Positions 40,757-60,948 of a stretch of 64,000 nucleotides of DNA are shown here, piece after piece; the first letter of the stretch is position 1, and each line of letters starts with the position of its first letter. Both the position numbers and the translations under genes were made by a program. A model generated the notes under the pieces. The model had not been told where the DNA came from. It did not search any database and saw only the letters and a list, made by a program, of their open reading frames with translations. The DNA is from Nitrospinota bacterium. Lineage in GTDB: Bacteria > Nitrospinota_A > UBA7883 > JACRGQ01. The stretch lies in assembly GCA_029881495.1 (NCBI GenBank), contig JAOUMJ010000003.1, positions 1 to 64,000 of the forward strand, given 5' to 3'.

Positions 40757-41692
40757 ATGCTTGATTTTAAATATAAGGTTTTCCTTTCTGCCGGAAGGCT
40801 GTTAAGTTTTTCAAAGGCGGCAAAAGAGATTTCACTCACACAGCCGGCAGTCAGCTTCCAGATACGGCACCTCGAGGAGGAGCTAGGCACACGGCTGTTT
40901 CTGAGGTATCCAAACAGAATAGAGCTTAGCCCTGTTGGTGAAATGCTCCTCAAGGAGCTTGAGCAGATGGAAGGGTACGCGGAGCAGGCACATCAACGGG
41001 TAATGAAGAAACTGGATAAATTCTGGGGTACCGTTGAAATTGGTGCATCAACAACGGTAGGCGACTACTTCCTTCCCCCTGTTCTAGCGGATTTCAAAAC
41101 AGAATATGACGAGGTGGGGCTAAAGGTACTTGTGGGAAATACCAACGAAGTTCTTGGCTATCTGGCAGACGGGCTCGTTGATTTCGCCATTGTCGAAGGC
41201 CCGGTAAAAACAAGGCAATGGGAAGTACAGGCCGCTTTTCTAGATGAGCTGGTCATCATCGCACCGAGGGATTTCTACTGCATGGGTGACGGGTATATAA
41301 CTAAAAAGCAACTGGCAGGCCAGCCGTTCATTTCCAGGGAACCAGGCTCCGGCACGCGGGCGGTAATCGACAGCATCAAGGATGGTGAAAAACTGCTTGT
41401 TCCTAAGTCAAATATAGTACTTGAGCTTGGTAGCAATACGGCGATAAAAAGGGTAGTGGAGTCCGGGCTAGGGATTTCCATAGTATCCAAAATGACGATT
41501 GCGCGCGAAGTTGCTAATAAATCCCTGTCAGTGATTCGAGTAAAGGATTTCCCAATCTACAGGCAGATATCGTTCGTGTTCAACCGCGGGGTGGAGAAGA
41601 CCGATCTGGTCACAAAGATGGTCAAATTATGCGAGCAAAGGGCACGGGAGGTCGGATTGGAAAACGCAGAGGGAAAAAATAACGTCTATTGA
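40757..41692 (+). CDS. LysR-type transcriptional regulator, divergent from soeABC
   Basis: A 311-residue LTTR: an N-terminal winged helix-turn-helix (residues 1-60: SFSKAAKEISLTQPAVSFQIRHLEEELG pattern, key part SLTQPAVSFQI) and a substrate-binding-like effector domain (about 90-295). It is divergent from soeABC with an inverted repeat between, so it probably regulates soeABC and itself. The effector cannot be read from sequence; a sulfur compound such as sulfite or adenylyl sulfate is a plausible inference. An SLC13 transporter lies downstream, but in its own transcription unit. Confidence 0.92.
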   Translation: MLDFKYKVFLSAGRLLSFSKAAKEISLTQPAVSFQIRHLEEELGTRLFLRYPNRIELSPVGEMLLKELEQMEGYAEQAHQRVMKKLDKFWGTVEIGASTTVGDYFLPPVLADFKTEYDEVGLKVLVGNTNEVLGYLADGLVDFAIVEGPVKTRQWEVQAAFLDELVIIAPRDFYCMGDGYITKKQLAGQPFISREPGSGTRAVIDSIKDGEKLLVPKSNIVLELGSNTAIKRVVESGLGISIVSKMTIAREVANKSLSVIRVKDFPIYRQISFVFNRGVEKTDLVTKMVKLCEQRAREVGLENAEGKNNVY

Positions 41693-41811
41693 CGCTTGTC
41701 AGGTGACATGCCGTTCGGTTCCATAAAATCTCCGCAAGCCTCATAACCGGTTTCATCTGTCTGCAATACGCATCCGGACCGGGCTAATTCCATATTTTTT
41801 AACGAAAAAAT

Positions 41812-41839
41812 ATTGATATAGAAAAAATCGCTTATCAAT
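41812..41839 (+). promoter_or_regulatory. Inverted repeat upstream of the SLC13 transporter
   Basis: ATTGATA (41812-41818) and TATCAAT (41833-41839) are exact inverted 7-mers in an AT-rich gap, ending 53 bases upstream of the transporter ATG. An operator for an unknown regulator is plausible. Confidence 0.4.
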
Positions 41840-41892
41840 GTTAAATTCTACGGATAATAGCAACATTGGATAATTATCCTGACGGAACAAAG

Positions 41893-43701: not shown

Positions 43702-43822
43702 TTAAGATTAGTTGATCAAATACACCAACATATGGTGTGTTTACCTGCTAAAATATGGCGCAAAAGCCATATTATCAAGAATAGCCCTGGTTGATTTCAT
43801 TTATGCCTATATATATCAATGC

Positions 43823-43840: not shown

Positions 43841-43992
43841 CGGTACGAACCTTGCTTTAAATTGGTACAATATAAGTGCAAAGGCGAAAAACATATCTTT
43901 TTTACCATAGGTATTGCACCTTTTCGGCATTTACTGGCTCTAAGAACTGATGTGGTAAGAATAGGTCGCCTGGTTGGGGGTAATTGTGTTGG

Positions 43993-45108
43993 ATGTATGG
44001 CATGAATGATAAATTCTCTGATGAATTGGGTTCGGTGAGTTCCCTTATTTCCAAGCCTGAGAATAGCCCTATACTTCAATCTATCTTTGACGGTCTTCCA
44101 GACGGAATAATCGTCATAGACAAGTTCTTCAAAGTGGTAATGGCCAACAAGGCCATGCAAACCCTACTTGACAAGCCAAGCAACGAACTGGAGGGGAAGT
44201 ACTGTTTCTATATCTGTCACGATACCAACAGGGTATGCGGAGACTGTCAGGCGGAGAATGTTTTCATGAATATGCACCCTCCTGCGCGGATCAGGAAGTG
44301 TTCGAAAGATAACAATGAGAACCGGCAGTACGAAATACTGAATTTCCCAATACGCAATATGAACGGAGAAGTTCATTACATGATCGAGTACATAAGGGAT
44401 ATAACGAATCTGCAAAATATTGAGAAAGAGCTGATGGAAACCCGGCGTCTCTCAATTATCGGAGAAATGGCGGCAAAGACGTCACATGAGATACGAAATC
44501 CGCTCAACGCCATGGAAGGAGCCGCTCACTATCTCCTTGAAGAGTATAAGGATGATCAAAAGATTCAGAAATTCGTGGGTCTTATCAGGGAGCAGATTCT
44601 GAGATTGAACGATGTGACGACGAATCTTCTCATGAAAGCCAAACAGAAATACAAAGGCGAAAAGGATCAAATAAGCACGGTACTGGTCAAGTCAATTGAA
44701 ATAGCCCAATATGCGCCCAACGGCAAAGAGGTGGAAATTGAGCTCTTCCTCGATGAAACGCTCCCAGCTGTTTATTTCGATCCATCGGCCATGCAGGAAG
44801 TTTTCGTAAACATACTGAAAAACGCAATGGATGCCGTCCAGGAAAATGGAAGAATAGAGGTCGTTGGCCAGATGCGGCAGAGAAGAGGCGAGGATTTTGT
44901 CGAAATAAGCGTTATCGATAACGGAGAGGGGATTCCGTTTCATAAAAAGGATCAGGTTTTCGATACATTTTTTACAACGAAGGCAAATGGAACCGGACTC
45001 GGCCTGGTAATTGTAAAAGACATTATGAAGGCACATGGCGGTTATATCTTTATCGACAGCGAACCGGGCGGAGGCACCTGTGTCGTATTAGGGTTGCCCG
45101 CACAATGA
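43993..45108 (+). CDS. PAS-domain sensor histidine kinase with a cysteine-rich sensor
   Basis: A 371-residue soluble kinase. The PAS domain (about 30-140) carries four cysteines, C71, C75, C82 and C85 (CFYICHDTNRVCGDC), plus C103, a pattern seen in some redox- or metal-binding PAS domains. The HisKA domain has phosphoacceptor His165 in KTSHEIRNPL, and the HATPase domain shows NILKNAMDAV, DNGEGIP and GTGLGLVIVKD. No membrane segment, so it reads a cytoplasmic signal. The start is chosen at ATG 43993, after a GGGGGT; TTG 43984 and ATG 44002 are alternatives. It overlaps the next regulator gene by 4 bases and lies upstream of tusA-dsrE2. Confidence 0.9.
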   Translation: MYGMNDKFSDELGSVSSLISKPENSPILQSIFDGLPDGIIVIDKFFKVVMANKAMQTLLDKPSNELEGKYCFYICHDTNRVCGDCQAENVFMNMHPPARIRKCSKDNNENRQYEILNFPIRNMNGEVHYMIEYIRDITNLQNIEKELMETRRLSIIGEMAAKTSHEIRNPLNAMEGAAHYLLEEYKDDQKIQKFVGLIREQILRLNDVTTNLLMKAKQKYKGEKDQISTVLVKSIEIAQYAPNGKEVEIELFLDETLPAVYFDPSAMQEVFVNILKNAMDAVQENGRIEVVGQMRQRRGEDFVEISVIDNGEGIPFHKKDQVFDTFFTTKANGTGLGLVIVKDIMKAHGGYIFIDSEPGGGTCVVLGLPAQ

Positions 45109-46508
45109 AAAATGATCTCCTTCGGACTCCAATACTTCTGATCGATGACGAGGAAGCGATTCTTGAGGTAATGTCCGTTAATCTCGAAAAGAAAAACCAC
45201 ATAATTGAAACCGCAAAAACCGGTCAAGAAGCGATCTCCAAGGTCTCGGAAAAAGATTACTCGACAATCATTCTTGACTATGCGTTGCCGGACATGAACG
45301 GACTTGATGTCCTGTCAGCCATCAAGAAAAAACGGCCAAATGTGCCGATAATCATGATAACGGCCTACGGCACGATAGAGATGGCCGTTTCCGCCATGAA
45401 AGCCGGTGTATTCAATTATCTTGTAAAACCGATCAATTATGAAGAGATGGAACTCATAGTGGACAAAGCGGTCGAACATTACAGGCTGATAGTAGAAGTT
45501 GGAACATTGCGAAAACAGCTGGATGACAGTTTTGGTCTCGACAATATTATAGGCAAGGGCACGGAAATGCAGAAGGTATTCGAAAAGGTGAAAATGGTTG
45601 CCGAGACCGATGCTACAGTGCTTATAAGGGGCGAGACCGGAACAGGAAAGGAGCTTATCGCGCGCGCTGTTCATAGCAAAAGCCTGAGATCCCGAAACAG
45701 TTTTATACGAATCAACTGCGCCGCAGTCCCGGCAACACTCCTCGAAGCAGAACTTTTCGGACATGAAAAGGGGGCTTTCACCGGAGCGATAAAGCAAAAA
45801 CCAGGAAAATTTGAACTTGCCAATAAGGGGACGATCCTGCTGGACGAAATAGGGGATGTATCCATGGAGATGCAGACCAAGTTGTTAAGGGTTTTGCAGG
45901 ATGGAGAATTTGACAGGGTAGGGGGAACAACAACTTTGGTCACGGACGCAAGAGTTATCGCCACGACAAATAAAAACCTTGAAGAAGCAATAAAGGAAGA
46001 AAAATTCAGGCTAGACCTGTTTTATAGATTGAATGTTATCCCAATAAATGTTCCCCCTTTGCGTGAAAGGAAGGAAGATATTCCGCTTCTCATAAGTCAT
46101 TTTATTCATAAATACTGCGGAAAAAACAATATGGCGATAAAGGAAGTGCCGCCGGCATTGGCCGCTTCGCTCATTCAATATTCGTGGCCCGGAAACGTAA
46201 GGGAGCTGGAAAACGTTATCGAAAGAGCGGTCGTCCTTTCACGCGGCAAACAGCTTGAAAATGTGGAGATAGTAGAAACAACCGCGAAAAAGAATGGAGC
46301 GGGCAACTTGAATTTAAACGAAACGAATTTCCAGACTGCCAAGAAAAAGATAATCGAGTCTTTTGAGGAACAGTACCTCGATAGCATGCTGAAAAAGCAT
46401 AAGGGAAACATAAGCGCATCTGCAAGAGAATCGGGGCTCGACTATAAAAATTTCCATACGAAACTGAAGAAATACAATATCCGCAAGAGAGAGTTTGAAG
46501 ATAATTAA
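45105..46508 (+). CDS. NtrC-family response regulator, partner of the PAS kinase
   Basis: A 467-residue sigma-54 activator: receiver (phosphoacceptor Asp58 in IILDYALP, Lys108 in LVKPIN), AAA+ domain with Walker A GETGTGKE at 176-183 and an intact GAFTGA loop (223-228), and a C-terminal Fis-type helix-turn-helix (about 435-465). It starts in ATGA overlap with the kinase, so the two form a cognate pair. The GAFTGA motif shows that it can engage sigma-54. The best promoter of that class seen here lies upstream of dsrE at 60399-60414. Confidence 0.95.
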   Translation: MKNDLLRTPILLIDDEEAILEVMSVNLEKKNHIIETAKTGQEAISKVSEKDYSTIILDYALPDMNGLDVLSAIKKKRPNVPIIMITAYGTIEMAVSAMKAGVFNYLVKPINYEEMELIVDKAVEHYRLIVEVGTLRKQLDDSFGLDNIIGKGTEMQKVFEKVKMVAETDATVLIRGETGTGKELIARAVHSKSLRSRNSFIRINCAAVPATLLEAELFGHEKGAFTGAIKQKPGKFELANKGTILLDEIGDVSMEMQTKLLRVLQDGEFDRVGGTTTLVTDARVIATTNKNLEEAIKEEKFRLDLFYRLNVIPINVPPLRERKEDIPLLISHFIHKYCGKNNMAIKEVPPALAASLIQYSWPGNVRELENVIERAVVLSRGKQLENVEIVETTAKKNGAGNLNLNETNFQTAKKKIIESFEEQYLDSMLKKHKGNISASARESGLDYKNFHTKLKKYNIRKREFEDN

Positions 46509-47553: not shown

Positions 47554-48477
47554 TTACTTTATTGCATTTTCAAGCATATCGTTGATCGCGTCCGGCGTAG
47601 TGATTATCTTTGTAAACGTTACCATGGTCAAGGCCGGCCAATGTATCGCAATCCTGAATCTTCCATGAAGCATCGTTGCCTTGTTTCCCTGAAGTACAAA
47701 CTCATAAGGGAGCGCCGCCAAATGGCTCTCGCCAATAATGGGGAGGAAAAATTTCTCCCCTCTGTCGGGATCTGTCAATGCAACTCCGAACACAGCGGTT
47801 TGTGATGATTCGTCGACTATTGAATATACCTTTTTGACGCCCCCTTTGTTCGCAGATAGCGAAGACTCAATTTTGGCGAGTCCTTCCTGGAACGTTTGAA
47901 ACTTTCCAAGAAGCACAGGATTGTCAAAGTACTCCATTCCAAACATATAGTGATAGTGTTCCAGATCGCTCGTAGAAACCGAACCTCCAAAAGGGGTGAA
48001 CTCCGAACCGACTTTGCCAAGCGCCGCCTTAACATCGGAGGCCACCTTGCTTAATTGAGCATTGTTTGGCTTGTAACTCGACATCAGGTATCCCCTGAAA
48101 AGGTATTCAGGGTTTACCATCGAAATTTCAGTCTTCCCGCCGGTAGAAATGATGCCTACTTTAAGCGCGGCGGCAAGAAGACCTCGATCTTTTACCTTTA
48201 ACACGGTAGCTATAAGGTCGTCTCTGGTATATGCAATAACTCTCATATTATCACTATCTTCCGGCTTATATTCGCCAAGAACCTTGAAGTTGCCTGCAAG
48301 AAGCGCTTCTTTCACACCGGTGGCGGCGGCGTCCACGTTTCCGCTGAATACACCAACTTTAAGATATGGTGAAAGATTCTGTTCTGCCCCTGCGTAATGA
48401 GGAGAGAAGAGCAGAAATGCAAGCGCTATGAAAGGGATGTATCGCTCTAGATTTCGAAACAATGAAAAAGATAACAT
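47554..48477 (-). CDS. Exported protein of unknown function downstream of dsrP
   Basis: I do not recognise this 307-residue protein. Residues 8-31 form a signal peptide with cleavage at HYAGA-E, so it is periplasmic or exported. The mature part looks like a two-domain alpha/beta protein (a first half with VGVFSGNVDAAATGVKEALLAG, a second half with a His-rich HYHYMFGMEYFDN around residue 180). It contains no cysteine and no haem-binding motif. The ATG at 48477 has GGGGGAG 8 bases upstream. It lies 70 bases downstream of dsrP in the same orientation and is probably the last gene of the dsr transcript, although it is not part of the canonical dsr set. Confidence 0.7.
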   Translation of the reverse strand: MLSFSLFRNLERYIPFIALAFLLFSPHYAGAEQNLSPYLKVGVFSGNVDAAATGVKEALLAGNFKVLGEYKPEDSDNMRVIAYTRDDLIATVLKVKDRGLLAAALKVGIISTGGKTEISMVNPEYLFRGYLMSSYKPNNAQLSKVASDVKAALGKVGSEFTPFGGSVSTSDLEHYHYMFGMEYFDNPVLLGKFQTFQEGLAKIESSLSANKGGVKKVYSIVDESSQTAVFGVALTDPDRGEKFFLPIIGESHLAALPYEFVLQGNKATMLHGRFRIAIHWPALTMVTFTKIITTPDAINDMLENAIK

Positions 48478-48547: not shown

Positions 48548-49759
48548 CTATGCCTCCGGTAAGGTTTCCCTGTTCTCTTCCTCTTTGGTAACCGGCAGCA
48601 TCTCAAAAAACTTGATCGCAAAGAGATAGATTAGCAATACTAAAGCGCCTATACCGACAGAAAAGAGAATCTCGGCGGTGCTTACGCAATAGTTGGCAAG
48701 CAATCCATCCTGAAAACTGCTGGTAATGTTGTATCCCGGGAAAAGTTCCAGGGGCAATACCTGACCAGGTATTACGATAATGTATCGTTCTGCCAGAACG
48801 CCAATAACTACCATGACGCAGGCAACGATAATCCATTTGACCGATTTGCCGGCGGGAGAGAGGAGCAGAAGGAGAGGGAATATGTTCCCCAAGCCGACCA
48901 TTCCAAGCCAGAATATCAACGAGATCTTTCCACCGTCAAAAAGGAGGAAATGTTGCAGTTCATAGTTTTTCGGGATATACGAACGTGTGATGTTTTCCAC
49001 GAAAAGGAAATAGGTCACTATCATTATAAAACCGGCAAGGTATCTTGCAAGTTTCAGCACTATCTTCATATCAAGGTATCGTTCTGAATATCTGAAAGTT
49101 GCCAACAGCACCAAGATCATCAATGCAGTTCCAGAAGAGAGCGCAGCAGCGATAAAACTGGGCGGCAGAAGAGGGGAGTGATAAAGCTCCCTTGCGCCGA
49201 CAAATCCGAAGATTGCTCCCGTTCCGCTATGAACCAGCACCGCCCAGAAAACAGCTGATATACCAAGAAGTTTTTCGAGCTTCTTCTTTTCAGCGAACAT
49301 CGCCCAGAGATAAACGATGCCGATTCCCATATAGACCGAATAGAGGACGCCGTTAAGTGAGAACATCGATCTCGGCTGGAAATGGAAGAAAGGGATAAAG
49401 AGCCGTTCCGGTCTTCCCCAATCGAGAATAATTGAAAGTAGTGCGCCGACTATAAGGACAACCGCAAGGAGAGCGGCGATCCTTGAGAATGGCTTGAATT
49501 CAGTCATGCCGAAAACTGACGAAAGGGCGGAAAGAACAAGGGAACCGGCGCTAAGGCCTATGAAATATACGGCCATTACTATCGGGAGCCCCCAAGGAAT
49601 CTGGTTTGTCATTCCGGTTATGTAGTGCCCTTCATGTTCCATCATGAAAGATGCCCACGCTCCTCCAAGCGCCAGTAGGAATAGGAATCCGGCGAACATC
49701 CAGAACCCTTTTGAAGTCCCTTCAATAGCCGTGAAAAACAGGTTTCTCTTTTCCATCAT
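48548..49759 (-). CDS. dsrP: DsrP, NrfD-like membrane subunit of DsrMKJOP
   Basis: DsrP is the integral membrane subunit that, with DsrO and DsrJ, exchanges electrons between the quinone pool and the periplasmic side of the DsrMKJOP complex. The 403-residue protein has about ten transmembrane helices and the NrfD pattern, with an N-terminal NQIPWGLPIVMAVYFIGLSAG and internal charged residues facing the membrane. It overlaps the dsrO stop by 4 bases (ATGA). Direction in this cluster: E, F, H, A, B, L, N, C, M, K, J, O, P. Confidence 0.94.
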   Translation of the reverse strand: MMEKRNLFFTAIEGTSKGFWMFAGFLFLLALGGAWASFMMEHEGHYITGMTNQIPWGLPIVMAVYFIGLSAGSLVLSALSSVFGMTEFKPFSRIAALLAVVLIVGALLSIILDWGRPERLFIPFFHFQPRSMFSLNGVLYSVYMGIGIVYLWAMFAEKKKLEKLLGISAVFWAVLVHSGTGAIFGFVGARELYHSPLLPPSFIAAALSSGTALMILVLLATFRYSERYLDMKIVLKLARYLAGFIMIVTYFLFVENITRSYIPKNYELQHFLLFDGGKISLIFWLGMVGLGNIFPLLLLLSPAGKSVKWIIVACVMVVIGVLAERYIIVIPGQVLPLELFPGYNITSSFQDGLLANYCVSTAEILFSVGIGALVLLIYLFAIKFFEMLPVTKEEENRETLPEA

Positions 49760-50508
49760 ATCCCCCTGTAATAGACCTTCGGCTCAAGGCCGAGGTCCTC
49801 TCGAATCCGTTTAGGAGCATGCTCTTTAATATATTTTGAGATATCGCTGTTTGGGTCGTTAAGATTGCCGAAGATCATCGCCTTTTCACCTTCACGATCG
49901 CAGGCGGTAACGCATGCAGGGAGTTGCCCGTCATCTATAAGGTGCACGCAGAAATTGCATTTTTCAACAACCCCCTTGGAGCGTATTGGCACTTTCGGGT
50001 TTGTCCAATCTCTTGTTTTTTTGAAGACGAAAGACCTCGCTTTGTAGGGGCACGCGATCATGCAATACCTGCAGCCGATACAGCGGTGCTTGTCGACAAG
50101 CACAATGCCGTCTTTCCTGGTAAATGTCGCCGCGGTAGGGCAGACATGCTGGCACGGCGGATGTTCGCAGTGATTGCAGAGAAGAGGAAGCGATATCTTT
50201 TTTTCAGGAGCGTTCTTCGGTGAAATGGTCGCCTTCCGGATCCAGTGCGCGTCTATTTTCTCGTCGCCAAAGAGCGGGACGTTATTTTCTTTTCTGCAGG
50301 CGGAGGTGCAGGCGGTGCAATCTTCCTTGCAGAGGTTGGTATCGATAACCATTCCCCATCTGTTTTTATCGGAAGCAGAACTATCATTAGCGCGCGCTTC
50401 GGCTTTTTGGGTGAACAGCGTAATGCCAGGGGCTATCGCCGTGCCGACAAGCAACGCGCTCCCTTTCAAGCCTTCCTTTAAAAATGAGCGCCTGTTAATT
50501 TCCGTCAT
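49756..50508 (-). CDS. dsrO: DsrO, periplasmic iron-sulfur subunit of DsrMKJOP
   Basis: A 250-residue ferredoxin-like protein that carries electrons between DsrJ and DsrP on the periplasmic side. It begins with a twin-arginine signal (NRRSFLKEG, hydrophobic stretch to about residue 37), so it is exported folded with its clusters. Cysteine motifs: CKEDCTACTSAC (about 58-69), CNHCEHPPCQHVCP, CIGCRYCMIACP and CNFCVHLI plus CVTACDREG, for four [4Fe-4S] clusters. It follows dsrJ by 15 bases. Confidence 0.94.
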   Translation of the reverse strand: MTEINRRSFLKEGLKGSALLVGTAIAPGITLFTQKAEARANDSSASDKNRWGMVIDTNLCKEDCTACTSACRKENNVPLFGDEKIDAHWIRKATISPKNAPEKKISLPLLCNHCEHPPCQHVCPTAATFTRKDGIVLVDKHRCIGCRYCMIACPYKARSFVFKKTRDWTNPKVPIRSKGVVEKCNFCVHLIDDGQLPACVTACDREGEKAMIFGNLNDPNSDISKYIKEHAPKRIREDLGLEPKVYYRGI

Positions 50509-50523
50509 ACTCTTTCCTCATCC

Positions 50524-50880
50524 CTACTTGTAGTAATGGCAATCGAAACATTCAGGGTTCGCGCCAACGTATTCGTGGCACCTGTCGCAGAACTCTTCCC
50601 TGCTAGTGTGACAACTGCTGCAGTTGTGCAGGGAGTGCGAGATCTTCCTTACACCTTCGCGTACAGCCTCATCCCTGGAGTTTTTAAGGACTATCATATG
50701 GTTGGCCCGCATGTAGGCTGTCTCTTCCACGCATTTGCTACCGGCTTCGGCAGGTATTACGAGATTAGGCCCCGCTTTTTTTTCCGAAAAGGCGCTGGAG
50801 CCAAATGTATACAGGAGGGGCGTTGCCAGCAGAGCTAGCACGATTGCCAGTATCGCTATTGAACCCGATTTTGTATTCAT
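50524..50880 (-). CDS. dsrJ: DsrJ, periplasmic triheme cytochrome c
   Basis: A 118-residue protein with an N-terminal uncleaved or cleavable signal (residues 7-27) and three haem-binding motifs CSSCH, CDRCH and CFDCH in the C-terminal 30 residues. A cysteine at about residue 50 (SKCVEETA) may be the unusual His/Cys axial ligand known for DsrJ. It is the periplasmic end of DsrMKJOP. It lies 6 bases after dsrK. Confidence 0.95.
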   Translation of the reverse strand: MNTKSGSIAILAIVLALLATPLLYTFGSSAFSEKKAGPNLVIPAEAGSKCVEETAYMRANHMIVLKNSRDEAVREGVRKISHSLHNCSSCHTSREEFCDRCHEYVGANPECFDCHYYK

Positions 50881-50886
50881 TTAACG

Positions 50887-52389
50887 CTACTCACCTTTTC
50901 CGCCAAGCACGATGGCGTTACTTACCAGTTGATGTACGCCCATTACCGCATCCATCGAAATATCATGATAGGGGAGAACCTTGGTGAACTGCGCCTTGCA
51001 TATGGCGCAGATCATCGCCATGGCGTTCACCTTTTTGCCATCCATGACGTCCTTTAGCGCCGCAACGCGAGGGGAGACCCCTTTCACACGAATCTCCATC
51101 AGTTCATCCGTGAGAAGACCGCCGCCACCGCCACAGCAGAATGTTTGCTCTCCGGTGGTCCTCGGATCCATCTCCACGAAATTGTTGCAGACGCTCTTTA
51201 GGACTTCACGAGGAATGGAAAGCTGGCCACCTTCACGATCGCCCATTCTGCTCCCTCTTGCTACGTTGCAGGAGTCGTGATAGGTGACTACAAATTCGTC
51301 GTTTGCGCTCTTATCGATCTTCAAGGCCCCTCTTTTGAGGAGATCGTTCGTAAATTCGCAAATGTGCTGTGGATATTGGTAGTTCGGATCGAGAAAATCA
51401 AATGGGCCGTTAAGGGTGTTCCAGAATGAGTATGCGACGCGCCAGGCGTGTCCGCATTCCCCGACAACTATCCGTTTTGCCTTCAGCTGGCGAGCGGCAT
51501 CTACTATCCTTTGCGCTATTTTCCTCATCTGTTCGTAGTTCCCCATGAACAGACCGAAATTCGCGAATTCGGAAGCATATGAACTGAAGGTGAAGCTTAT
51601 GCCTGCCTGGTGGAAAACCTTAGCGTACCCGGCAAGAGAATCAATATGGGGCGAGGAGAAAAAATCTGCCGAAGGTGCAATTAAAAGAACTTCCGCTCCT
51701 TCAACGTCAAGTGGGAATTTTACATCCACCCCAGTTGTCTCCTGCACGTCCTCTTCCATGAAGTCGAGGGTGCTTTGGAGCGCCGGTTTTGGAATTCCAA
51801 GGTTGTTGCCAAGCTCATGCACCTTACCCATGATCTCAAGCGAATACTTTTGCCCCACGCCGACGGACTGCATCAGTTCCCGTGCCGCCATGGTAATTTC
51901 CGCCGTGTCTATTCCAAAGGGGCAGAATACAGAACATCTTCTGCATTCGGAGCATTGAAAGAAGTATGAATACCACTCCTTGAGAGTTTCTTCCGTCAAC
52001 TCTTCGGCTCTGGTGTATGAGCCGAAATATTTGCCCCCTGTCGTGAAATATTTTCTATATATCTTTCGGAGGAGTTCCTGTCTCCCTACCGGCATATTGT
52101 TCGGGTCGCCAGTCGTTAGGAAGTAGTGGCATTTATCCGAACAGCTTCCGCATTTAACGCAGATCTCCATGTAGAGTTTCAGAGATTTATATTTTTGAAG
52201 AAGCTCTTCAAATTTTTTCAGCAATACTTCCTGCCAGTTGTCCACGAGCTTTTCAGGAAAGCCCATCGCCCTCATGTGGTCTTCGCTTGCAGGGTGGCAT
52301 TTCAATCCGGCTGTAGCGCCAGGTTTTACCGCGGGAGTGGCCAGAATCGGGCCATCATATATGGGAAGGTCGTATTTCTCGTTTGCCAT
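50887..52389 (-). CDS. dsrK: DsrK, heterodisulfide reductase-like catalytic subunit
   Basis: DsrK is an HdrD-like iron-sulfur protein that is thought to act on the DsrC cysteine pair (disulfide or trisulfide). The 500-residue protein has two ferredoxin motifs (CVKCGSCSDKC at about 77-87, CSECRRCSVFCP at about 145-156) and two CCG-type motifs: a single-Cys form in YHDSCNVARGS and the full FCCGGGGGLL near residue 415, for the special [4Fe-4S] site. It begins immediately after the dsrM stop codon. Confidence 0.95.
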   Translation of the reverse strand: MANEKYDLPIYDGPILATPAVKPGATAGLKCHPASEDHMRAMGFPEKLVDNWQEVLLKKFEELLQKYKSLKLYMEICVKCGSCSDKCHYFLTTGDPNNMPVGRQELLRKIYRKYFTTGGKYFGSYTRAEELTEETLKEWYSYFFQCSECRRCSVFCPFGIDTAEITMAARELMQSVGVGQKYSLEIMGKVHELGNNLGIPKPALQSTLDFMEEDVQETTGVDVKFPLDVEGAEVLLIAPSADFFSSPHIDSLAGYAKVFHQAGISFTFSSYASEFANFGLFMGNYEQMRKIAQRIVDAARQLKAKRIVVGECGHAWRVAYSFWNTLNGPFDFLDPNYQYPQHICEFTNDLLKRGALKIDKSANDEFVVTYHDSCNVARGSRMGDREGGQLSIPREVLKSVCNNFVEMDPRTTGEQTFCCGGGGGLLTDELMEIRVKGVSPRVAALKDVMDGKKVNAMAMICAICKAQFTKVLPYHDISMDAVMGVHQLVSNAIVLGGKGE

Positions 52390-53130
52390 TTAGTTTCCTC
52401 CCCCTCTGTTTGCCCAAGGATTCACCCATCGCACTTCACGCACGTTCTCAACCTGCATCCGCGTCGGGCTGAAGAATATCCCGCCTGAATGGAGAAGTTT
52501 GCTGAACGGGAAATATCCCGCCAGCAGAAGCACGAGTGAGTAGTGCGTGATGAACAGTGTGCTTTCCGGAATGTTCACTGGGCTAAGCGTGATCAGTCCG
52601 ATTATGAATGCCTTTATGGATGCCACGTCCGGGTGAAAAAGGAGTTTTAGAGCGATGCCGCTGAGAGCTATAAGCAACAGCAGAAGGAGAGCGAATATAT
52701 CGGCCCCGGATGTTATGAAATTCAACCTGTCAACGTATCGCCTCATTATCCAGAGGAATATGAGCGGTACCGGCAGCAGAAGGCCGGCGACAACTCCAAT
52801 TGGCTGTATGAACGCAATGGAACAGCTGAGAGGTTCCACGAAATACCTGAGGTGCCTTAGGAATACCAGAAGGAGTATCAGGTGAAGGGTGTATCCTCCG
52901 AGCCAAGTCCACCTGTTGCCCCTGAAAACGCTCTCGAATGTCGCTATCAGCCTGGCATTTTTTAATATTACACCGACGGCTGTGGTTGGCTGGGGTGTTG
53001 TCGCAATATTCAAAGGTGACGGCGTAACCGCGTAACCCCAAAGCTTATAAATGAGGCCGCCGAAGAATACCGCGGCGACCATGTAGCTTAGGGCGATATA
53101 CACCACAGACAGAGCAGATAACTCTCCCAT
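52390..53130 (-). CDS. dsrM: DsrM, cytochrome b-like membrane subunit (short form)
   Basis: A 246-residue membrane protein with about five to six transmembrane helices, homologous to the HdrE/NarI-type haem b subunit; conserved histidines occur in LHLILLLVFLRHLRYF and in the last helix region (ITHYSLV). It passes electrons between DsrK and quinone. The length is like that of sulfur-oxidiser DsrM as I remember it; sulfate-reducer forms are often longer. It starts after AAAGGTTGG and lies directly upstream of dsrK. Confidence 0.93.
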   Translation of the reverse strand: MGELSALSVVYIALSYMVAAVFFGGLIYKLWGYAVTPSPLNIATTPQPTTAVGVILKNARLIATFESVFRGNRWTWLGGYTLHLILLLVFLRHLRYFVEPLSCSIAFIQPIGVVAGLLLPVPLIFLWIMRRYVDRLNFITSGADIFALLLLLLIALSGIALKLLFHPDVASIKAFIIGLITLSPVNIPESTLFITHYSLVLLLAGYFPFSKLLHSGGIFFSPTRMQVENVREVRWVNPWANRGGGN

Positions 53131-53159: not shown

Positions 53160-53492
53160 TTATACGCAACCGGTAGGTTTCGGCAGGCCAGCTATTTTAC
53201 AAGCCTGTTTTGCCGGTCCGGCCGGGTAAAGTTCGTAAAGATACTTTGTGTTCCCTTTTTCCTTGCCAAGTTTCTTGCCGAGTTCTTTCGTAAGAATACG
53301 TATCATCGGGGCGATCTTATATTCCTTGTAGTAATCACGAAGGAAATTTACAACTTCCCAATGGGCTTCAGTCATATTCAGTCCTTCGGACTTTGCCATT
53401 TCGTCGGCTATCTCCTGGTTCCAGTCATCAAGGTTTTTCAGGTATCCCTCTTCATCTGTTTCAATTGTCTTGCCAGCTACTTCCATCGACAT
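53160..53492 (-). CDS. dsrC: DsrC sulfur carrier protein
   Basis: DsrC carries the sulfur atom that DsrAB oxidises, bound between its two conserved C-terminal cysteines. The 110-residue protein ends in CKIAGLPKPTGCV: Cys98 and Cys109 are the two conserved cysteines, so it is a true DsrC and not a TusE-like one-Cys form. It starts after GGAGGGATAACT. It is between dsrN and dsrM, as in several reverse-Dsr clusters. Confidence 0.97.
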   Translation of the reverse strand: MSMEVAGKTIETDEEGYLKNLDDWNQEIADEMAKSEGLNMTEAHWEVVNFLRDYYKEYKIAPMIRILTKELGKKLGKEKGNTKYLYELYPAGPAKQACKIAGLPKPTGCV

Positions 53493-53511: not shown

Positions 53512-54972
53512 TTAAATGGTTACTTTTTCCAAACTTGTCTCTTTGCTTAAAGAGAAAAGTGATTTTGGCAGTTTTGAATAATTGATTCGTTTTGCGAAGT
53601 TGACGAATCCTTCAGCCCAGTTCGTGCACCCGAGATGATGCAGGTGACAGAAGGAGGCTGTTACGTTTTTATAGACGATACCGTCATGCTTGCCGTCTAT
53701 CCCGTTCCCTCTTAACACATCAAACGCGAAATCGGTATGGGATGAATTCACCACTTCGCCATAATGGAATTCATGCGCCTTCATTTCACCTACACAGGTG
53801 ATCCATGGAGACTTTCCCGTAGATTTCAATGTCATATAGCCGTGCCCCTTTGGGCGTTTTCTTATGATAACTTCGCAGTCAAGCGCGCCTACCATCGGAG
53901 CGGTGACGTTTTTCCACGATACCGATTTCGCAAGGTATATTAGGCCGCCGCATTCAGCATGAACAGGCATACCGTTTTCAATGGAGAGCCTTATATCCTC
54001 GCGAAGCGATTCGTTCATCCCTATTTTTTCCATGAACGCCTCTGGAAATCCTCCGCCGACGTAAAGGGCATCGATATTTTCAGGGAGCCTGCCATCCATG
54101 AGACTGTTGACAGGGACAAGATTTGCTCCCGCGCTACGCAATGCTTCAAGATTCTCGGGATAGTAAAAGGTAAATGCCTTATCCTTCACTACGCCGATAG
54201 TGACAGAAGGGGTAGGGAAGGTCGCGCTCTTTACAGGTTCGAAAGCCATTGGCTCTGCCGAGCTGGCGATTTCGAGTATCCTGTCGAGGTTCACAGAGGC
54301 GCCAACCACTTTCGCGATCTCCTTCACGGCAGGGTATAGCCCCATCTCTTCGCCAGCAGGCATGAGTCCGAGATGCCTTTCCAGAACCTCCATCTCTTTC
54401 GATTTGCGGATAACTCCTAGTATCTCCATATCGCAATACTTTTCTATCACGGCGCGCAGTTTTTGCTCATGTCTGGCGCTCGCAACCTTATTCAAAATCA
54501 CGCCGGCAATCCTGATATCGGGCTCAAAAGCCTTGTATCCAAGGAGGAGAGGAGCTACGCCGCGCGTAATCCGGCTGGTGTCCAACACTATCACGACAGG
54601 AGCATTTAGGTGTCTCGCAAGGTTCGCGGTAGATCCTTCGCCGTCTACTTCTATAGAGTCGTAAAGACCCTTGTTCCCTTCGATGATATTAACATCCGAG
54701 TTCCTCGAGTGTCTGGAGAATACGTCCAATACGCCATCCCAGCCGGTCATGAAATAATCGAGATTGTGGCACTCCTTCCCGGCGGCGGTTGAGAGCCAGC
54801 CGGGATCTATATAATCAGGCCCTTTCTTGTATGGCTGGACGTTTATCCCCCGTTCCGCCAGGGCGGCGCATATCCCTACTGTGGTTACAGTTTTCCCTGA
54901 ACTTTTATGCCCGGCGGAAATAACCACTCTTGGGCAGTTGCGAGTAAGGTCTGATTTCATATCAATATCCAT
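53512..54972 (-). CDS. dsrN: DsrN, cobyrinate a,c-diamide synthase-like amidase
   Basis: DsrN belongs to the CbiA family and is thought to amidate sirohydrochlorin for the siroheme amide of DsrAB. The 486-residue protein has the ATP-binding P-loop GHKSSGKTVTTVGICAAL (about 21-38), an YKKGPDYIDP segment, and a C-terminal glutamine amidotransferase domain with HAECGGLIYLA (nucleophile Cys). I chose ATG 54972, after CAAGGTG, 26 bases downstream of dsrL; the longer open frame upstream runs inside dsrL and is not coding. It follows dsrL and precedes dsrC. Confidence 0.92.
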   Translation of the reverse strand: MDIDMKSDLTRNCPRVVISAGHKSSGKTVTTVGICAALAERGINVQPYKKGPDYIDPGWLSTAAGKECHNLDYFMTGWDGVLDVFSRHSRNSDVNIIEGNKGLYDSIEVDGEGSTANLARHLNAPVVIVLDTSRITRGVAPLLLGYKAFEPDIRIAGVILNKVASARHEQKLRAVIEKYCDMEILGVIRKSKEMEVLERHLGLMPAGEEMGLYPAVKEIAKVVGASVNLDRILEIASSAEPMAFEPVKSATFPTPSVTIGVVKDKAFTFYYPENLEALRSAGANLVPVNSLMDGRLPENIDALYVGGGFPEAFMEKIGMNESLREDIRLSIENGMPVHAECGGLIYLAKSVSWKNVTAPMVGALDCEVIIRKRPKGHGYMTLKSTGKSPWITCVGEMKAHEFHYGEVVNSSHTDFAFDVLRGNGIDGKHDGIVYKNVTASFCHLHHLGCTNWAEGFVNFAKRINYSKLPKSLFSLSKETSLEKVTI

Positions 54973-54998: not shown

Positions 54999-56798
54999 TT
55001 ACAATCCCATTCCCATTTCGATATAGCCGCATGGACACGCTTCCGCACAGATATGGCAACCGTTGCATCGGGTATAATCGGTAAACATCGTTTTTCCTTT
55101 TGGCCGATCGATATCTTTGCTGATAGCCTCGCGCGGACAGTGAACACGGCACTGGTCACAGACAAAACAGAGTCCGCAACTCATGCATCGTTTCGACTCT
55201 GCGATAGCGTGTTCCATGCTGAGCGTTTTTTTGATCTCTTCGAAGCCGGTTGTGCGCACGTTGACAGGGAGTTCTTCTTCTTCGTGCCGCTCCATGGGAG
55301 GATAGTAATCCCTCCTCATTTTGTTGAAACTGATCGGGCGAACCTGCGGTCTTGCGCGGTACTCCCTCTTGCTCAGGAAATCGTCCATCGCTTCAGCGGC
55401 AATGCGCCCCTGACCAACCGATTTTGTCGAGATACCTAGGCCGAGAGCGTCCCCCCCCGCGAATATGCCCTTATGACGTGTTTCGTGATTTTTATCGGCT
55501 TCAACCCAGCCATGCGCGTTGGCAATTTCAGCCAGACCTCCCGGCAGTTCCGGCGCCTGACCGATACCTACAATGACTGTGTCGGCATTAACGGAGAATT
55601 CCGAACCTGGAATTGGTTCTGGCCTTCTTCTGCCAGATTTGTCCGGCTCGCCCAGCTGCATCCTGACGCATTTGATAGCCGTAGCCCGGCCATCCTTTAC
55701 GGCAAATTCAATGGGCGCGGCAAGGAATTCCATTTTGATCCCTTCCTTGATGGCTTCATTAACGTCTTCAGCGATTGCGGGCATTTCTGCCTGTGTTCGC
55801 CTGTAGAGTATTGTCACGTTCGCCTTTTCCATCATCCTTTTCGTTACACGCGCGGAATCAAGCGCGGTTTTGCCGTCTGTCGCGCTCATTTCATCATCCG
55901 AAGAGCTCAGGAGGCGAAGAGACGTTCTCGCGGCATCAACAGCCGAATCGCCGCCGCCGATAACGACGACGTTTTTACCTATCTCGACTTTTGCGCCAGA
56001 TTTGACCCTGTTGAGGTAGCTTGCGCCTGTGAATACGTTCGCTGAATCCTCGCCGTCAATTCCGATGGTGACCCCTTTATGAGCTCCGATCGCGAGATAT
56101 ACTGCGTCATAATCCTTTTTGATTTTGTTGAAATCAATATCAACGCCGATTCTCGTATTGCATTTCAGCTCAATGCCAAGGTCGAGTATGTTCTGGATCT
56201 CCTTGTCCAGGATATCGACCGGCAGCCTGTATTGGGGGATGCCGTAGCGAAGCATACCGCCAGGTTTCTCGAACCCCTCATAGATAGTCACCTTGTAGCC
56301 GCGTCTGGCCAGCTGGTAGGCGCAGGAGAGGCCGGAAGGACCAGAGCCGATAACGGCAATCTTCTTGTTGTTGCTCTTCTCGACAAGCTTTTTAAATTTC
56401 AGGCCGCGCTTCAAGCCATGATCCCCGATATAACGCTCGAAGTTGTTGATAGCCACGGAGCCATCCTCAAGATGCTGTCTGTTGCACCCCTTTTCGCAAG
56501 GGTGGGGGCATATCCTCCCATGAGTCGCCGGCATCGGATTCTTATCAGTCAAGATGTACCAGGCTTCATCAAAGGAAGCCTGTACATCCCTCTTGTAGAT
56601 ATCGCTCTGCGCGACCTGGGTAAGGTATCCTCGTATGTCCTCGCTACTCGGGCATTCGCTCCTGCAAGGAGGAAGACTCTGAACGTAGACCGGACATTTC
56701 CAACTCTGCCCATTGGTAACTACTATCTTTTCAGGGTCGCCTTTCCTTAGTAAGGAATCGTCGAAGACCTTTCCGGGCTCAATTATCGTTGTTTTCAT
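54999..56798 (-). CDS. dsrL: DsrL, NAD(P)H:acceptor iron-sulfur flavoprotein partner of DsrAB
   Basis: DsrL is a GltD-like flavoprotein that exchanges electrons between NAD(P)H and DsrAB, and is required for sulfur oxidation in Allochromatium. The 599-residue protein has N-terminal cysteines (CPVYVQSLPPCRSECP, ICPHPCEKGC), FAD fold GSGPSGLSCAYQLARRG (about 151-167), nucleotide fold GGGDSAVDAARTSL, and a C-terminal two-cluster ferredoxin (CMSCGLCFVCDQCRVHCP and CNGCHICAEACPCG, about 540-592). It lies 25 bases after dsrB, where sulfate reducers would instead have dsrD. I cannot tell the DsrL subtype. Confidence 0.93.
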   Translation of the reverse strand: MKTTIIEPGKVFDDSLLRKGDPEKIVVTNGQSWKCPVYVQSLPPCRSECPSSEDIRGYLTQVAQSDIYKRDVQASFDEAWYILTDKNPMPATHGRICPHPCEKGCNRQHLEDGSVAINNFERYIGDHGLKRGLKFKKLVEKSNNKKIAVIGSGPSGLSCAYQLARRGYKVTIYEGFEKPGGMLRYGIPQYRLPVDILDKEIQNILDLGIELKCNTRIGVDIDFNKIKKDYDAVYLAIGAHKGVTIGIDGEDSANVFTGASYLNRVKSGAKVEIGKNVVVIGGGDSAVDAARTSLRLLSSSDDEMSATDGKTALDSARVTKRMMEKANVTILYRRTQAEMPAIAEDVNEAIKEGIKMEFLAAPIEFAVKDGRATAIKCVRMQLGEPDKSGRRRPEPIPGSEFSVNADTVIVGIGQAPELPGGLAEIANAHGWVEADKNHETRHKGIFAGGDALGLGISTKSVGQGRIAAEAMDDFLSKREYRARPQVRPISFNKMRRDYYPPMERHEEEELPVNVRTTGFEEIKKTLSMEHAIAESKRCMSCGLCFVCDQCRVHCPREAISKDIDRPKGKTMFTDYTRCNGCHICAEACPCGYIEMGMGL

Positions 56799-56823: not shown

Positions 56824-57906
56824 TTATGTCCTTACATGTGACGACATGTTAAATGTTGACCTTGCGGCAGGGCTGTCGTCAATGTGGTACTTCGTGAATT
56901 CAAATCCTGTTTCCTCAAAGAAGCGGGGCCAGCCGACCCTGTCGATCCACTCACCAATCCGTTCCCAGGGTTTGGCGCCTTTTCTGTACGCATTTAAAAT
57001 CTTGTCTACCGCTTCGGTTACTTCGGGCCAGCGCGGCGGATTGTTCGGGAGACCGAAAACTGCCAGCTTCATGAAGCTTGGTCCTTTTCTGGTGCTGGAA
57101 GACTTTCCTCCAACAAAAATGGAAATCGTATCCGTATCCGAATCGCGGATTTCCATTGCCGGGCACTGACCGTGGCAAGCGCCGCAATACATGCACTTCT
57201 CTTCTACAACCTCTACAGACTGCTTCCCATTCACAATTTTCGGCCTGATAGCGGCAACAGGGCATATGGCAACGACCTTGGGGACTTCGCAGTTCGGAAC
57301 ATTGTTATGGTCAATCCTCGGCGCGTGATGATGCTGCATGTTGAACGCGATATCAGACTGTCCACCGCAGTTTATTTGGCAACATGATGTCGACATGCGA
57401 ACGCGGTTGGGGAGATTCTCGTTTTTGAACTCATCAATGAGATGATCCATCATCGCTTTTACTGAACCGGCGGCATCCGTATTCGGAAGGTTGCAATGGA
57501 GCCACCCCTGCGTGTGAAGTATGTTCGAGATGGAAGGGCCGGTACCGCCTATCGGGAAGCCAAGTGTTTTCTCGACCTCTTTTATGAGAGGTTCAATATT
57601 GGATTCTTTCGCAAGTCCGAACTCCAGATTGTTCCTCGTAGTGAAGCGAACAAATCCTTCCGAGTATTTGTCAGCAATATCGCAAATTTGCCTTATCTTG
57701 TGGACGCTTAACGTCCTTGGCGAACCTGCGCGAACTGTGAAGAGTTTGTCGCCGTTTTCAGCCACATGTACAAGTACGCCCGGCTTGATCCTTTCATGGT
57801 ATTTCCACTTGCCGTAGTTCTTCTTCATCAATGGATGAAGATATTTCGTATAGTCGGGTGCACCGTTATCGCGCGGCGCAAGTTTTTGACCAGTTGTTGA
57901 ACTCAT
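56824..57906 (-). CDS. dsrB: Dissimilatory sulfite reductase, beta subunit (reverse type likely)
   Basis: A 360-residue siroheme sulfite reductase subunit. Visible: the siroheme/[4Fe-4S] cysteines in STSCCQINCGG (about 175-185), the ferredoxin-type CMYCGACHGQCP near 245, and the substrate-side RFTTRNNLEFG around residue 90. With DsrA it forms an alpha2beta2 enzyme that, in an oxidiser, turns DsrC-bound sulfur into sulfite. The start codon follows GAGGGA, which overlaps the dsrA stop. DsrL follows directly. Confidence 0.97.
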   Translation of the reverse strand: MSSTTGQKLAPRDNGAPDYTKYLHPLMKKNYGKWKYHERIKPGVLVHVAENGDKLFTVRAGSPRTLSVHKIRQICDIADKYSEGFVRFTTRNNLEFGLAKESNIEPLIKEVEKTLGFPIGGTGPSISNILHTQGWLHCNLPNTDAAGSVKAMMDHLIDEFKNENLPNRVRMSTSCCQINCGGQSDIAFNMQHHHAPRIDHNNVPNCEVPKVVAICPVAAIRPKIVNGKQSVEVVEEKCMYCGACHGQCPAMEIRDSDTDTISIFVGGKSSSTRKGPSFMKLAVFGLPNNPPRWPEVTEAVDKILNAYRKGAKPWERIGEWIDRVGWPRFFEETGFEFTKYHIDDSPAARSTFNMSSHVRT

Positions 57907-57909
57907 AGC

Positions 57910-59181
57910 TTATCCCTCAACTTTCTCGTTACTGACAATATCTTTGTTCATCACCGAAGGATTCCTCTTTTTCTCCCCGCCGAAATTTGACGGAGCAAGC
58001 TCCTCAAATTTGATGTACGGGCTTACCCTTGGTTCGCGGACCATTCTTGGATCTGGCTTGATGCCTACATTCTCAAGGAAAGTGCCGAGCCCAATGCGCG
58101 CGATGAATTCGCCGACACGCTCATGCTCAAGACCGTTATCGGCCCAGAAATCCCATATCCTTTCAATAAGCTCGGTGAGCTTATCCCAGTCCTCTTTCGT
58201 TTCGAGTTTCATGAAAGGAACCAGAACAGAACCCATCGTGTCGCCAATCTTAAGCGTTCGTTTTCCGCCAATAAGTATTGTTACACCCTTGTCCTTGCCG
58301 GGAGCCAAAGCCCTGTTCATTACGTTGATGCAGTGCATGCAGTGAACGCACGAGTCATCGTCAACGACCATCTTCTTGCCGTCGAGCTTCATGCAATTCG
58401 CGGGACAGCGGCTGATTACAACGTCCTTCACGTATTCTTCGCCGTTTTTATCGATGAATTTCGCTACTTCGGCCTGGTCTATCAGCATCGGTCCGCGCCA
58501 AGTACCTATGATAGGCATATCGGAGCGCTGCATGGAGTTTGCGCAGTCGTTCGCGCAACCGGAGAGTTTGAATTTGTACTTGTAGGAGAATTCAGGCCTG
58601 TGAAGGAAGCCGATGAATGTATCGGTAATGTGTTTTGTCACGCCCATGGTGTCGTAGCAGGCCATTTCACATCGTGCCTGTCCAACGCAGCAGGCGAGGG
58701 TCCTCATCGCGGCACCCGAACCACCGATGTCCCACCCTTTTTCCATCAGCGCTTCGCCGGCGACGAATGTCTGCTCCGTGTTTGAACCTAGCATCAGGAT
58801 ATCGCCGGTCATACCGTGCAGCTGCATGATGCCTGCGCTATGTTTTTCGCTGATATCGCAAAGCTCGCGCAATGCGTCGGTGGAGTATACGAAACCGGGC
58901 GGCTCGATAACGCGTATGGTATGGAATTCCTTAATATCAGGATATTTGTGACCAAGTTCCGAAAGGCGGGCAATAACGCCGCCGCCGTACTGAGGAAGGT
59001 TGACTAGCGTTCCCTGCCAGTAGTTCCACCTGTTTTCGTAGGATTCTTCAAGCTGATCCAGTAGCTGGTCAACCGAAGGTTTTTCCTCTGCCAAGCCCTT
59101 CAAATCGGTCACAAAGCTGGGCCATGGACCGCTTTCAAGTTGATCTAGCAGGGGCCTTTTCTTATTTTTTGTCTTTGCCAT
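57910..59181 (-). CDS. dsrA: Dissimilatory sulfite reductase, alpha subunit (reverse type likely)
   Basis: The 423-residue catalytic alpha subunit. Counting from GTG 59211, siroheme-cluster cysteines are visible in LACCVGQARCEMAC (about C174-C185) and SGCANDC (C219, C223), and the ferredoxin motif is CPANC ... CVHCMHCINV (about 280-308). I place the start at ATG 59181, which has GAGGG at the right distance and begins MAKTKNKKRPLLDQLESGPW like known DsrA. The GTG at 59211 would add ten residues. It sits downstream of dsrEFH rather than at the head of the cluster. Confidence 0.96.
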   Translation of the reverse strand: MAKTKNKKRPLLDQLESGPWPSFVTDLKGLAEEKPSVDQLLDQLEESYENRWNYWQGTLVNLPQYGGGVIARLSELGHKYPDIKEFHTIRVIEPPGFVYSTDALRELCDISEKHSAGIMQLHGMTGDILMLGSNTEQTFVAGEALMEKGWDIGGSGAAMRTLACCVGQARCEMACYDTMGVTKHITDTFIGFLHRPEFSYKYKFKLSGCANDCANSMQRSDMPIIGTWRGPMLIDQAEVAKFIDKNGEEYVKDVVISRCPANCMKLDGKKMVVDDDSCVHCMHCINVMNRALAPGKDKGVTILIGGKRTLKIGDTMGSVLVPFMKLETKEDWDKLTELIERIWDFWADNGLEHERVGEFIARIGLGTFLENVGIKPDPRMVREPRVSPYIKFEELAPSNFGGEKKRNPSVMNKDIVSNEKVEG

Positions 59182-59274
59182 ATTACCCTCACTTATAGAA
59201 GTTTCTGTCACTGCCTGAACAATTAACTATCAACAAACCGTCTCACAGGACGGCAACTACACTAATAAACAACG

Positions 59275-59568
59275 CTATATCCACGGGGCAACATTATGCT
59301 TCTCCGCCAAGTCTACGAATCCCGCATAATCTACAATCTTTACCCCATCTATTACTGATGCGATCCCTCTTGCCTTCAGGTCTGGCCCTAGAGCGTAAAT
59401 TTCGAACTTGCCGAGAGCCTCTTTCAATTTCTTTTCATATGATGTCCCTTTTGAAGCGGCGTATACACCATCCTCGATAAGCAGTATCGGCGTATCCTTG
59501 ATGGCGTACTGAAGGCATGAATCAAGGTGCCCAAAAAGGAACGGTGATTTATTTACGGTAAATAGCAA
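59275..59568 (-). CDS. dsrH: DsrH/TusB-like sulfur transfer subunit
   Basis: The smallest subunit of the DsrE2F2H2 sulfurtransferase. The 97-residue protein has a cysteine at about residue 18 (LDSCLQYAIKD), in the position of the conserved DsrH Cys, and the family pattern LLIEDGVYAAS. TTG 59568 is the start, with GAGGGGTGA upstream. It is 14 bases after dsrF. Confidence 0.9.
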   Translation of the reverse strand: MLFTVNKSPFLFGHLDSCLQYAIKDTPILLIEDGVYAASKGTSYEKKLKEALGKFEIYALGPDLKARGIASVIDGVKIVDYAGFVDLAEKHNVAPWI

Positions 59569-59582
59569 TTCGTCACCCCTCT

Positions 59583-59981
59583 TTAAAATGGAAACAGGAC
59601 ATCCTGCTCCTGCATTAATTTTGTAACTTCGCTTTTGTCGACGACCTCGACTTCAAGTAGAAGATCCTCAACAGTAAGGCCTCTATTCTCAAGTGACTCC
59701 TTTTCGACATATATTTTCTCTATTCCATATCCTGGGAGTACCCTGAATGTGGTCGAAAAATCTTTCGCTCCAATCTCTTTTGGATCCTGGCCTTTCTTTA
59801 TGGCATAAACACCATCATCGAGAAATACAGCGGAAAGGTCCTGATCGTAGGCGGCAACGATGAGCATTACCTCGAGACCCTCATAAGGATTGATCGTTCC
59901 ATGAGGGGCCTTCCTCATAACGAACATCATCTTTTTAACTATTTCGTCGCTTGATTCTTCAATTTCTTCCGGATTTGCCAT
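59583..59981 (-). CDS. dsrF: DsrF/TusC-like sulfur transfer subunit
   Basis: A 132-residue subunit of DsrEFH, with the family pattern KMMFVMRKAPHGTINPYEGLEVML near the start and AVFLDDGVYAIKKGQ in the middle. It has an acidic N-terminal extension of about 16 residues (EEIEESSDE) and no cysteine, as expected for a structural subunit. It starts after GGGGAT, 3 bases past the dsrE end. Confidence 0.9.
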   Translation of the reverse strand: MANPEEIEESSDEIVKKMMFVMRKAPHGTINPYEGLEVMLIVAAYDQDLSAVFLDDGVYAIKKGQDPKEIGAKDFSTTFRVLPGYGIEKIYVEKESLENRGLTVEDLLLEVEVVDKSEVTKLMQEQDVLFPF

Positions 59982-59984
59982 CTT

Positions 59985-60344
59985 TTAATCCCCAAAGGTC
60001 ACTAATCGGTCGGTTGATATAGCCAGATCTGTCAATTGCCCAAGTCCTGATATTCTGGTTCCTTTAATTAGGTTATCGTCTATCAAGCCCCGTCTTTTGC
60101 CAGCGGCGATGCAAACAACAATATCTATCCCTTTTTCCTGAGCAAGTTTGGACCACTTTTCCTGAACGTTCCTATCGTCCTGAGGCGGATCGCCAAATGA
60201 AGTAGCGTTGTTAACGCCATCGTTATAGAGGAAAACTCCTGAAACTTCGTGCCCCTTTTCAAGGGCAGCGATAGCAAAATTGTATGCCGAGTCTGAAGAC
60301 TGGTGCTGATACGGTCCTTCAAGTATCAAAATACCGAATTTCAA
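59985..60344 (-). CDS. dsrE: DsrE/TusD-like sulfur transfer subunit
   Basis: DsrE carries the active cysteine that accepts sulfur from TusA and passes it to DsrC; DsrEFH is found in sulfur oxidisers and is absent from most sulfate reducers. The roughly 119-residue protein has FGILILEGPYQHQSSDSAYNFA near its start, and the active cysteine in DIVVCIAAGKRRG (about residue 77), as in known DsrE. The start is TTG 60344, judged by family start and by GTGGGGGT just upstream; GTG 60356 is the alternative. It is the first gene of the dsr cluster and lies just downstream of a sigma-54 promoter. Confidence 0.92.
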   Translation of the reverse strand: MKFGILILEGPYQHQSSDSAYNFAIAALEKGHEVSGVFLYNDGVNNATSFGDPPQDDRNVQEKWSKLAQEKGIDIVVCIAAGKRRGLIDDNLIKGTRISGLGQLTDLAISTDRLVTFGD

Positions 60345-60398
60345 CTTTACCCCCACTTTTCTACAATTAAAAATTGCTCTATGCTGAACTAGTAAAAG

Positions 60399-60414
60399 GC
60401 AATATCAGTGCCAA
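60399..60414 (-). promoter_or_regulatory. Sigma-54 (-24/-12) promoter of the dsr cluster
   Basis: On the minus strand TTGGCAC (60414-60408) is followed after 5 bases (TGATA) by TTGC (60402-60399). This fits the TGGCAC-N5-TTGC consensus of sigma-54 promoters exactly in sequence and spacing. The start of transcription would be near 60387, about 30-45 bases before the dsrE start codon. Confidence 0.8.
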
Positions 60415-60540: not shown

Positions 60541-60570
60541 TACCATTGGTAATATGGTGAAAATACCATA
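60541..60570. promoter_or_regulatory. Tandem palindromes, candidate activator binding sites
   Basis: TACCA-T-TGGTA (60541-60551) and TATGGT-(6)-ACCATA (60553-60570) are two adjacent inverted repeats sharing the same TACCA half-site. They lie about 130-170 bases upstream of the sigma-54 promoter, the usual distance for enhancer sites of NtrC-type activators. Confidence 0.55.
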
Positions 60571-60887
60571 GCAAGGCGGATGTTTGAGATGTTTCGTAAT
60601 AAATGCGCCATTTATTAACCTCGTTTTACTTTAAAAATTTAATGGTGTTTTTCGATCCTTGAATTTGAATGGAGAGACCTTGGATACCATACAGGTTTTG
60701 AATGAAAAAATGAGAACGTAGGATCGCTGAATACATCATCACTTCTTTCTCCTGTATTTTATCGTTGTTGTCATTATACACCTAGTATCAATATTTTTAA
60801 ATTCAGAATCAAAACCTGCCTGACAGCCAATTTGTAATATCTTCAACTGACCCCACTCAAGTCTTATTGCAACAGTATGTTAGAATG

Positions 60888-60913: not shown

Positions 60914-60948
60914 TTACAAGTCACCTTAGATAGGAGATGTTTTTACTG

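Follow-up and report, generated by a model that had tools for sequence, protein, structure and literature searches.

The dsr gene cluster in the window, the 64,000-nucleotide stretch of a Nitrospinota genome analysed here, appears to be read from a sigma-54 promoter, a conclusion that is well supported by comparison with related genomes. The promoter is preceded by a palindrome that also lies upstream of a neighbouring pair of genes encoding a histidine kinase and an NtrC-type response regulator, and this pair is likely the activator of dsr. Taken as a whole, we consider it probable that the kinase and regulator drive sigma-54 transcription of both the dsr operon and their own promoter. Promoter, activator site and candidate sensor-activator pair are all placed at single-base resolution. 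Bacterial control of the Dsr pathway is poorly understood, and the promoter together with the shared activator site suggests that in this family the pathway has a dedicated on/off switch.

The genes of the cluster follow the order dsrEFHABLNCMKJOP (Table 1). The GTG at 60356 is no more than the mechanical ORF start of dsrE, and the TTG listed in the table is the likely one. The gene content is that of an oxidative (reverse) Dsr pathway, with dsrEFH and a dsrL-like gene present and dsrD absent. A search for dsrD that was positive in G046 and G063 did not find the gene in seven family genomes. Reverse-type dsr genes have been reported for the Nitrospinota class UBA7883 (PMC10839748). This content favours an oxidative direction but does not fix it, because DsrL can also serve reduction (PMC10839748). 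The window's DsrA shares about 44-52% identity with its proteobacterial counterparts and, for the most part, 65-71% with those of family and class-mates. Identity to the DsrA of G008 and G004 is 47-49% and to that of G005, G009 and G010 about 69-70%, yet G005 and G008 are congeneric; dsrAB seems to have been swapped beneath a conserved dsrEFH promoter. Just after dsrP, the minus strand (47554-48477) encodes a 307-aa protein with a signal-like start and no Pfam or NCBIfam match.

Table 1. Coordinates of the predicted regulatory elements and genes in the window
Feature	Position	Strand	Basis
Predicted sigma-54 -24/-12 element TGGCACTGATATTGC, dsr promoter	60399..60413	-	Pattern match; shared by 11 dsr promoters (9 genomes)
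Predicted transcription start (+1)	60387	-	Inferred from the -12 position (C of GC at 60399)
Putative activator palindrome TATGGTATTTTCACCATA (minus-strand reading)	60553..60570	.	Conserved; lies 157 bp 5' of the -24 element
Second palindrome copy, exact	43754..43771	.	5' of the kinase and regulator genes; genome-wide search
Sigma-54-like site CGGTACGAACCTTGCT, putative regulator promoter	43841..43856	+	87 bp from palindrome start
Histidine kinase (PAS, HisKA, HATPase)	43984..45108	+	Domain search; invariant PAS Cys motif
NtrC-type response regulator (receiver, sigma-54 AAA with GAFTGA, HTH_8, a Fis-type HTH)	45105..46508	+	Domain search
dsrE	59985..60344	-	TIGR03012 over cut-off; likely TTG start 60344 after GGGGG
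dsrF	59583..59981	-	TIGR03010
dsrH	59275..59568	-	TIGR03011
dsrA	57910..59211	-	TIGR02064
dsrB	56824..57906	-	TIGR02066
dsrL-like NAD(P) oxidoreductase	54999..56798	-	Named by position and domains
dsrN-like (cobyrinate amidase type), likely start 54972	53512..54972	-	Sequence reading
dsrC	53160..53492	-	TIGR03342
dsrM	52390-53130	-	Name by order and sequence
dsrK	50887-52389	-	Name by order and sequence
dsrJ	50524-50880	-	Name by order and sequence
dsrO	49756-50508	-	Name by order and sequence
dsrP	48548-49759	-	Name by order and sequence

Read on the minus strand, the dsr promoter element fits the consensus TGGCAC-N5-TTGC exactly, as the sequence-only reading had claimed, and 12 bp separate the GG at -24 from the GC at -12, the spacing that sigma-54 needs. 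That reading had placed the element at 60399-60414; the site is indeed there, but the element proper spans 60399-60413 and position 60414 merely adds the preceding T. The expected distance from dsrE was also borne out, with the predicted start, near 60387 as in the sequence-only reading, 43 nt 5' of the likely dsrE start codon. This is the sole exact consensus match in the window (0.10 expected), and within the 220 bp that follow the palindrome its score was equalled by only 1 of 600 dinucleotide shuffles. Genome-wide pattern searches, controlled with the reversed pattern, returned 11 exact matches in 2.82 Mb versus 6 for the control, so the exact match taken alone is not compelling and barely exceeds what chance gives. 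Among the remaining matches, some precede flagellar-type genes, named by reading (flgFG-like in L009, flhF-like in L012), which fits ordinary sigma-54 use.

In our comparison, it is conservation rather than the exact match that decides for a real promoter. The relatives compared were G001-G010, members of the same family of uncultured groundwater Nitrospinota. The element precedes dsrE in all eight of those with a readable dsr promoter (G002, G003, G004, G005, G007, G008, G009 and G010), and in G002 and G007, which share a genus, it also precedes a separately placed dsrA. Together with the window genome this makes 11 dsr promoters in 9 genomes, with the family consensus YGGCAYNNATATTGCC. When five genera were aligned on the element, its 16 nt were 84% identical versus a nearly random 22-38% in adjacent windows, and the palindrome was 68% identical versus 25-38% in its surroundings. 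The element is thus kept in homologous dsr clusters of the family, where the sequence-only reading had proposed to look for it. It was absent before dsrE of G011 and G012, and promoter elements were absent from more distant class-mates that have dsrA and lack the kinase. In genus g6 (L067, L068, L075 and L077), the 5' leader between promoter and dsrE contains GCTATGG ... CATAGC, an inverted repeat that is imperfect in G008 and absent from the window; it is possibly a hairpin or a second operator.

The palindrome, with the consensus TATGGYN6RCCATA, lies 154-181 bp before the -24 element in 11 of 11 dsr promoters, with one mismatch in G004. In the window genome it occurs exactly in two places only, before dsrE and before the kinase and regulator pair. 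The reversed palindrome occurs in four, so the number is ordinary in itself; it is the positions that are unusual. Only one promoter had an IHF-like site in the stretch that separates palindrome and sigma-54 element. Further targets in the window genome were rejected among the 13 of its 21 one-mismatch palindromes that were examined, none of which has a convincing sigma-54 site or comparable promoter nearby. An extra palindrome in G009 (C24) falls within a repeat-protein ORF, and those of G001 and G006, located within or next to ORFs of a hydrogenase region where the promoter layout does not match, were discounted. The palindrome is unlikely to serve the divergent gene at 60937, since in relatives it accompanies dsr whatever lies upstream.

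The second palindrome copy precedes the two-component genes at a nearly fixed distance from a sigma-54-like site, 86 or 87 bp in seven of seven regulator promoters (exactly 86 bp in G003, G004, G005, G008, G009 and G010; 87 bp in the window genome, where the sigma-54 site is weaker, CGGTAC...). The palindromes of G004 and G010 have one mismatch each, and none was found upstream of the G007 kinase. In the regulator promoters of four relatives (L086, L097, L098 and L099; palindrome at 1501) an extra half site, CCATAT-NN-ATGG, follows the palindrome, which suggests two regulator dimers. The regulator itself has the receiver, the AAA+ domain with GAFTGA and the Fis-type HTH of the NtrC type. The kinase has no evident membrane segment by sequence reading, and five Cys in its PAS domain are common to eight kinase orthologs; in the window they form the pattern C-x3-CH-x6-C-x2-CQA, plus one Cys further on. 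The first gene of the regulator operon in G003, G004, G005, G008, G009 and G010 encodes a protein of the TauE family (assigned through PF01925 in L098 and by resemblance in the others), which the window operon lacks.

An unlikely alternative is that the sigma-54 promoter is real while some other enhancer-binding protein binds the palindrome and controls both dsr and the two-component operon, the latter being a target rather than the activator. The window genome encodes about 16 strong sigma-54 activator domains that could supply such a protein, and G002 has the dsr promoter with no kinase ortholog found, although that genome is fragmented and its congener G007 has the kinase. Against this, kinase presence tracks the promoter across the family. 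Kinase orthologs, at 55-59% identity, were found only in G003, G004, G005, G007, G008, G009 and G010, all carrying the dsr promoter element, and the best match elsewhere is 37% or less; both the kinase and a dsrA ortholog are missing from G001 and G006. Furthermore, kinase and dsr share a contig in the window genome, G005, G007, G008 and G009, and a palindrome before a regulator's own genes is the classic layout of autoregulation.

We therefore retain the neighbouring pair as the candidate activator, and the mechanism that we propose is the following. The kinase would phosphorylate the regulator, which would then bind the palindrome about 157 bp upstream of the dsr promoter and, through DNA looping, drive sigma-54 polymerase into the open complex at the -24/-12 element, which would act as the working promoter of a single dsrEFHABLNCMKJOP transcript. 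The same regulator would bind the second palindrome and activate its own operon. We infer both the binding of the palindrome by this regulator and the nature of the signal, probably a sulfur- or redox-related cue from the cytoplasm that is perceived at the Cys-bearing PAS domain. More tentatively, the system may be a dedicated, self-activating switch whose soluble five-Cys PAS kinase responds to sulfur or redox chemistry in the cytoplasm, namely to persulfide, to sulfite or to the state of an Fe-S or metal site. Its targets would be the dsr operon and, in most of the relatives, also a sulfite exporter of the TauE type. Expression of dsr would then be tied to a likely sulfite exporter.

The presence of rpoN, which the sequence-only reading had named as a check, was confirmed in part: the genome has a single gene (G000 C6, about 90.7 kb; L001:1492-2971, minus strand), but in this assembly one frameshift, located in the linker that precedes the DNA-binding domain, splits it into two overlapping frames. 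In relatives the frame is uninterrupted and mostly 479-492 aa, except for copies truncated at contig ends or by N. If the frameshift is real, the dsr promoter may be silent in the window organism though conserved in the family; a second rpoN was not found. We regard this, too, as improbable, slightly more so than a different activator, considering that both halves of rpoN are otherwise well conserved and retain the RpoN box, that about 16 activators and the flagellar-type sites remain, and that indels can occur in draft metagenome assemblies. A chance match of the element, with dsr transcribed from an ordinary sigma-70 promoter instead, is very improbable, because strong conservation and fixed architecture in 9 genomes outweigh the modest genome-wide excess of matches, and the sigma-70-like sites at 60773-60801 are about as many as chance predicts (4 found, 3.7 expected) and lie >370 bp upstream. 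The proposal of an enhancer-dependent sigma-54 promoter before the dsr cluster, made from the window alone, is thus supported by the distance to dsrE, by conservation, by the presence of rpoN, subject to its frameshift, by the activator palindrome and by the candidate two-component activator.

Sigma-54 control is known for other sulfur-oxidation systems. In Acidithiobacillus caldus, TspS/TspR control the sox-II cluster and resemble the present pair in being a kinase and sigma-54 response regulator beside a sulfur-oxidation cluster, with a palindromic activator site and sigma-54 dependence (PMC6335251). Their target is sox and here it is dsr; their activator site, TGTCCCAAATGGGACA, is unrelated to the palindrome found before dsr; and their proposed signal is periplasmic thiosulfate, in contrast to the kinase without evident membrane segment described above. 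According to PMC7315123, citing Li et al. 2017, FisR is a sigma-54 activator of the sulfide-oxidation genes sqr/pdo in Cupriavidus and Acinetobacter, with a TauE exporter in its operon as in most relatives here; it is a one-component regulator of sqr/pdo, unlike the two-component pair at dsr. In Thioalkalivibrio, the thiocyanate dehydrogenase cluster likewise adjoins a kinase and sigma-54 Fis regulator pair and sigma-54 control is suspected, but the enzyme system is another and the link is inferred from expression (PMC5744179). The domain architecture of the window pair resembles AtoSC, NtrBC and ZraSR, and its best NCBIfam matches are AtoS and AtoC, but the regulator scores far below the curated cut-offs (AtoC 453/714, NtrC 425/559 and ZraR 373/760 bits) and the pair does not belong to these equivalogs.

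Desulfovibrio vulgaris has dsr genes and many sigma-54 activators, and the main texts of its sigma-54 regulome and response regulator map do not mention dsr genes (PMC4641369, PMC3333781); nor does a cross-phylum sigma-54 survey mention dsr. We found no report of sigma-54 control of dsr in the open-access literature searched, in line with the earlier remark that no such control was known to be established. The mechanism is of a known kind, and what is new, as far as we found, is its dsr target together with the activator site and the proposed sensor.

Among the best 80 DsrE loci of GTDB genomes, a sample of the closest DsrE relatives only, the palindrome occurs only in the four Nitrospinota loci, three of which have the sigma-54 element at threshold; the fourth, L131, falls just below it and its palindrome is identical to that of G007. 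Wider use across dsr clusters was rejected within this sample. Sigma-54-like matches just upstream of dsr genes in L143 and L186 are isolated, imperfect and without palindrome. Within uncultured Nitrospinota, promoter and palindrome may make regulation of the Dsr pathway predictable.

Other genes of the window lie close to the regulator. The interval that separates the dsr operon from the regulator genes encodes a DsrE2-family protein (PF13686; 46788-47279). The regions 37736-40633 and 40757-43701 hold a molybdopterin oxidoreductase, possibly SoeA-like, and a divergent LysR-type regulator, adjoining a citrate/sulfate symporter-type permease.
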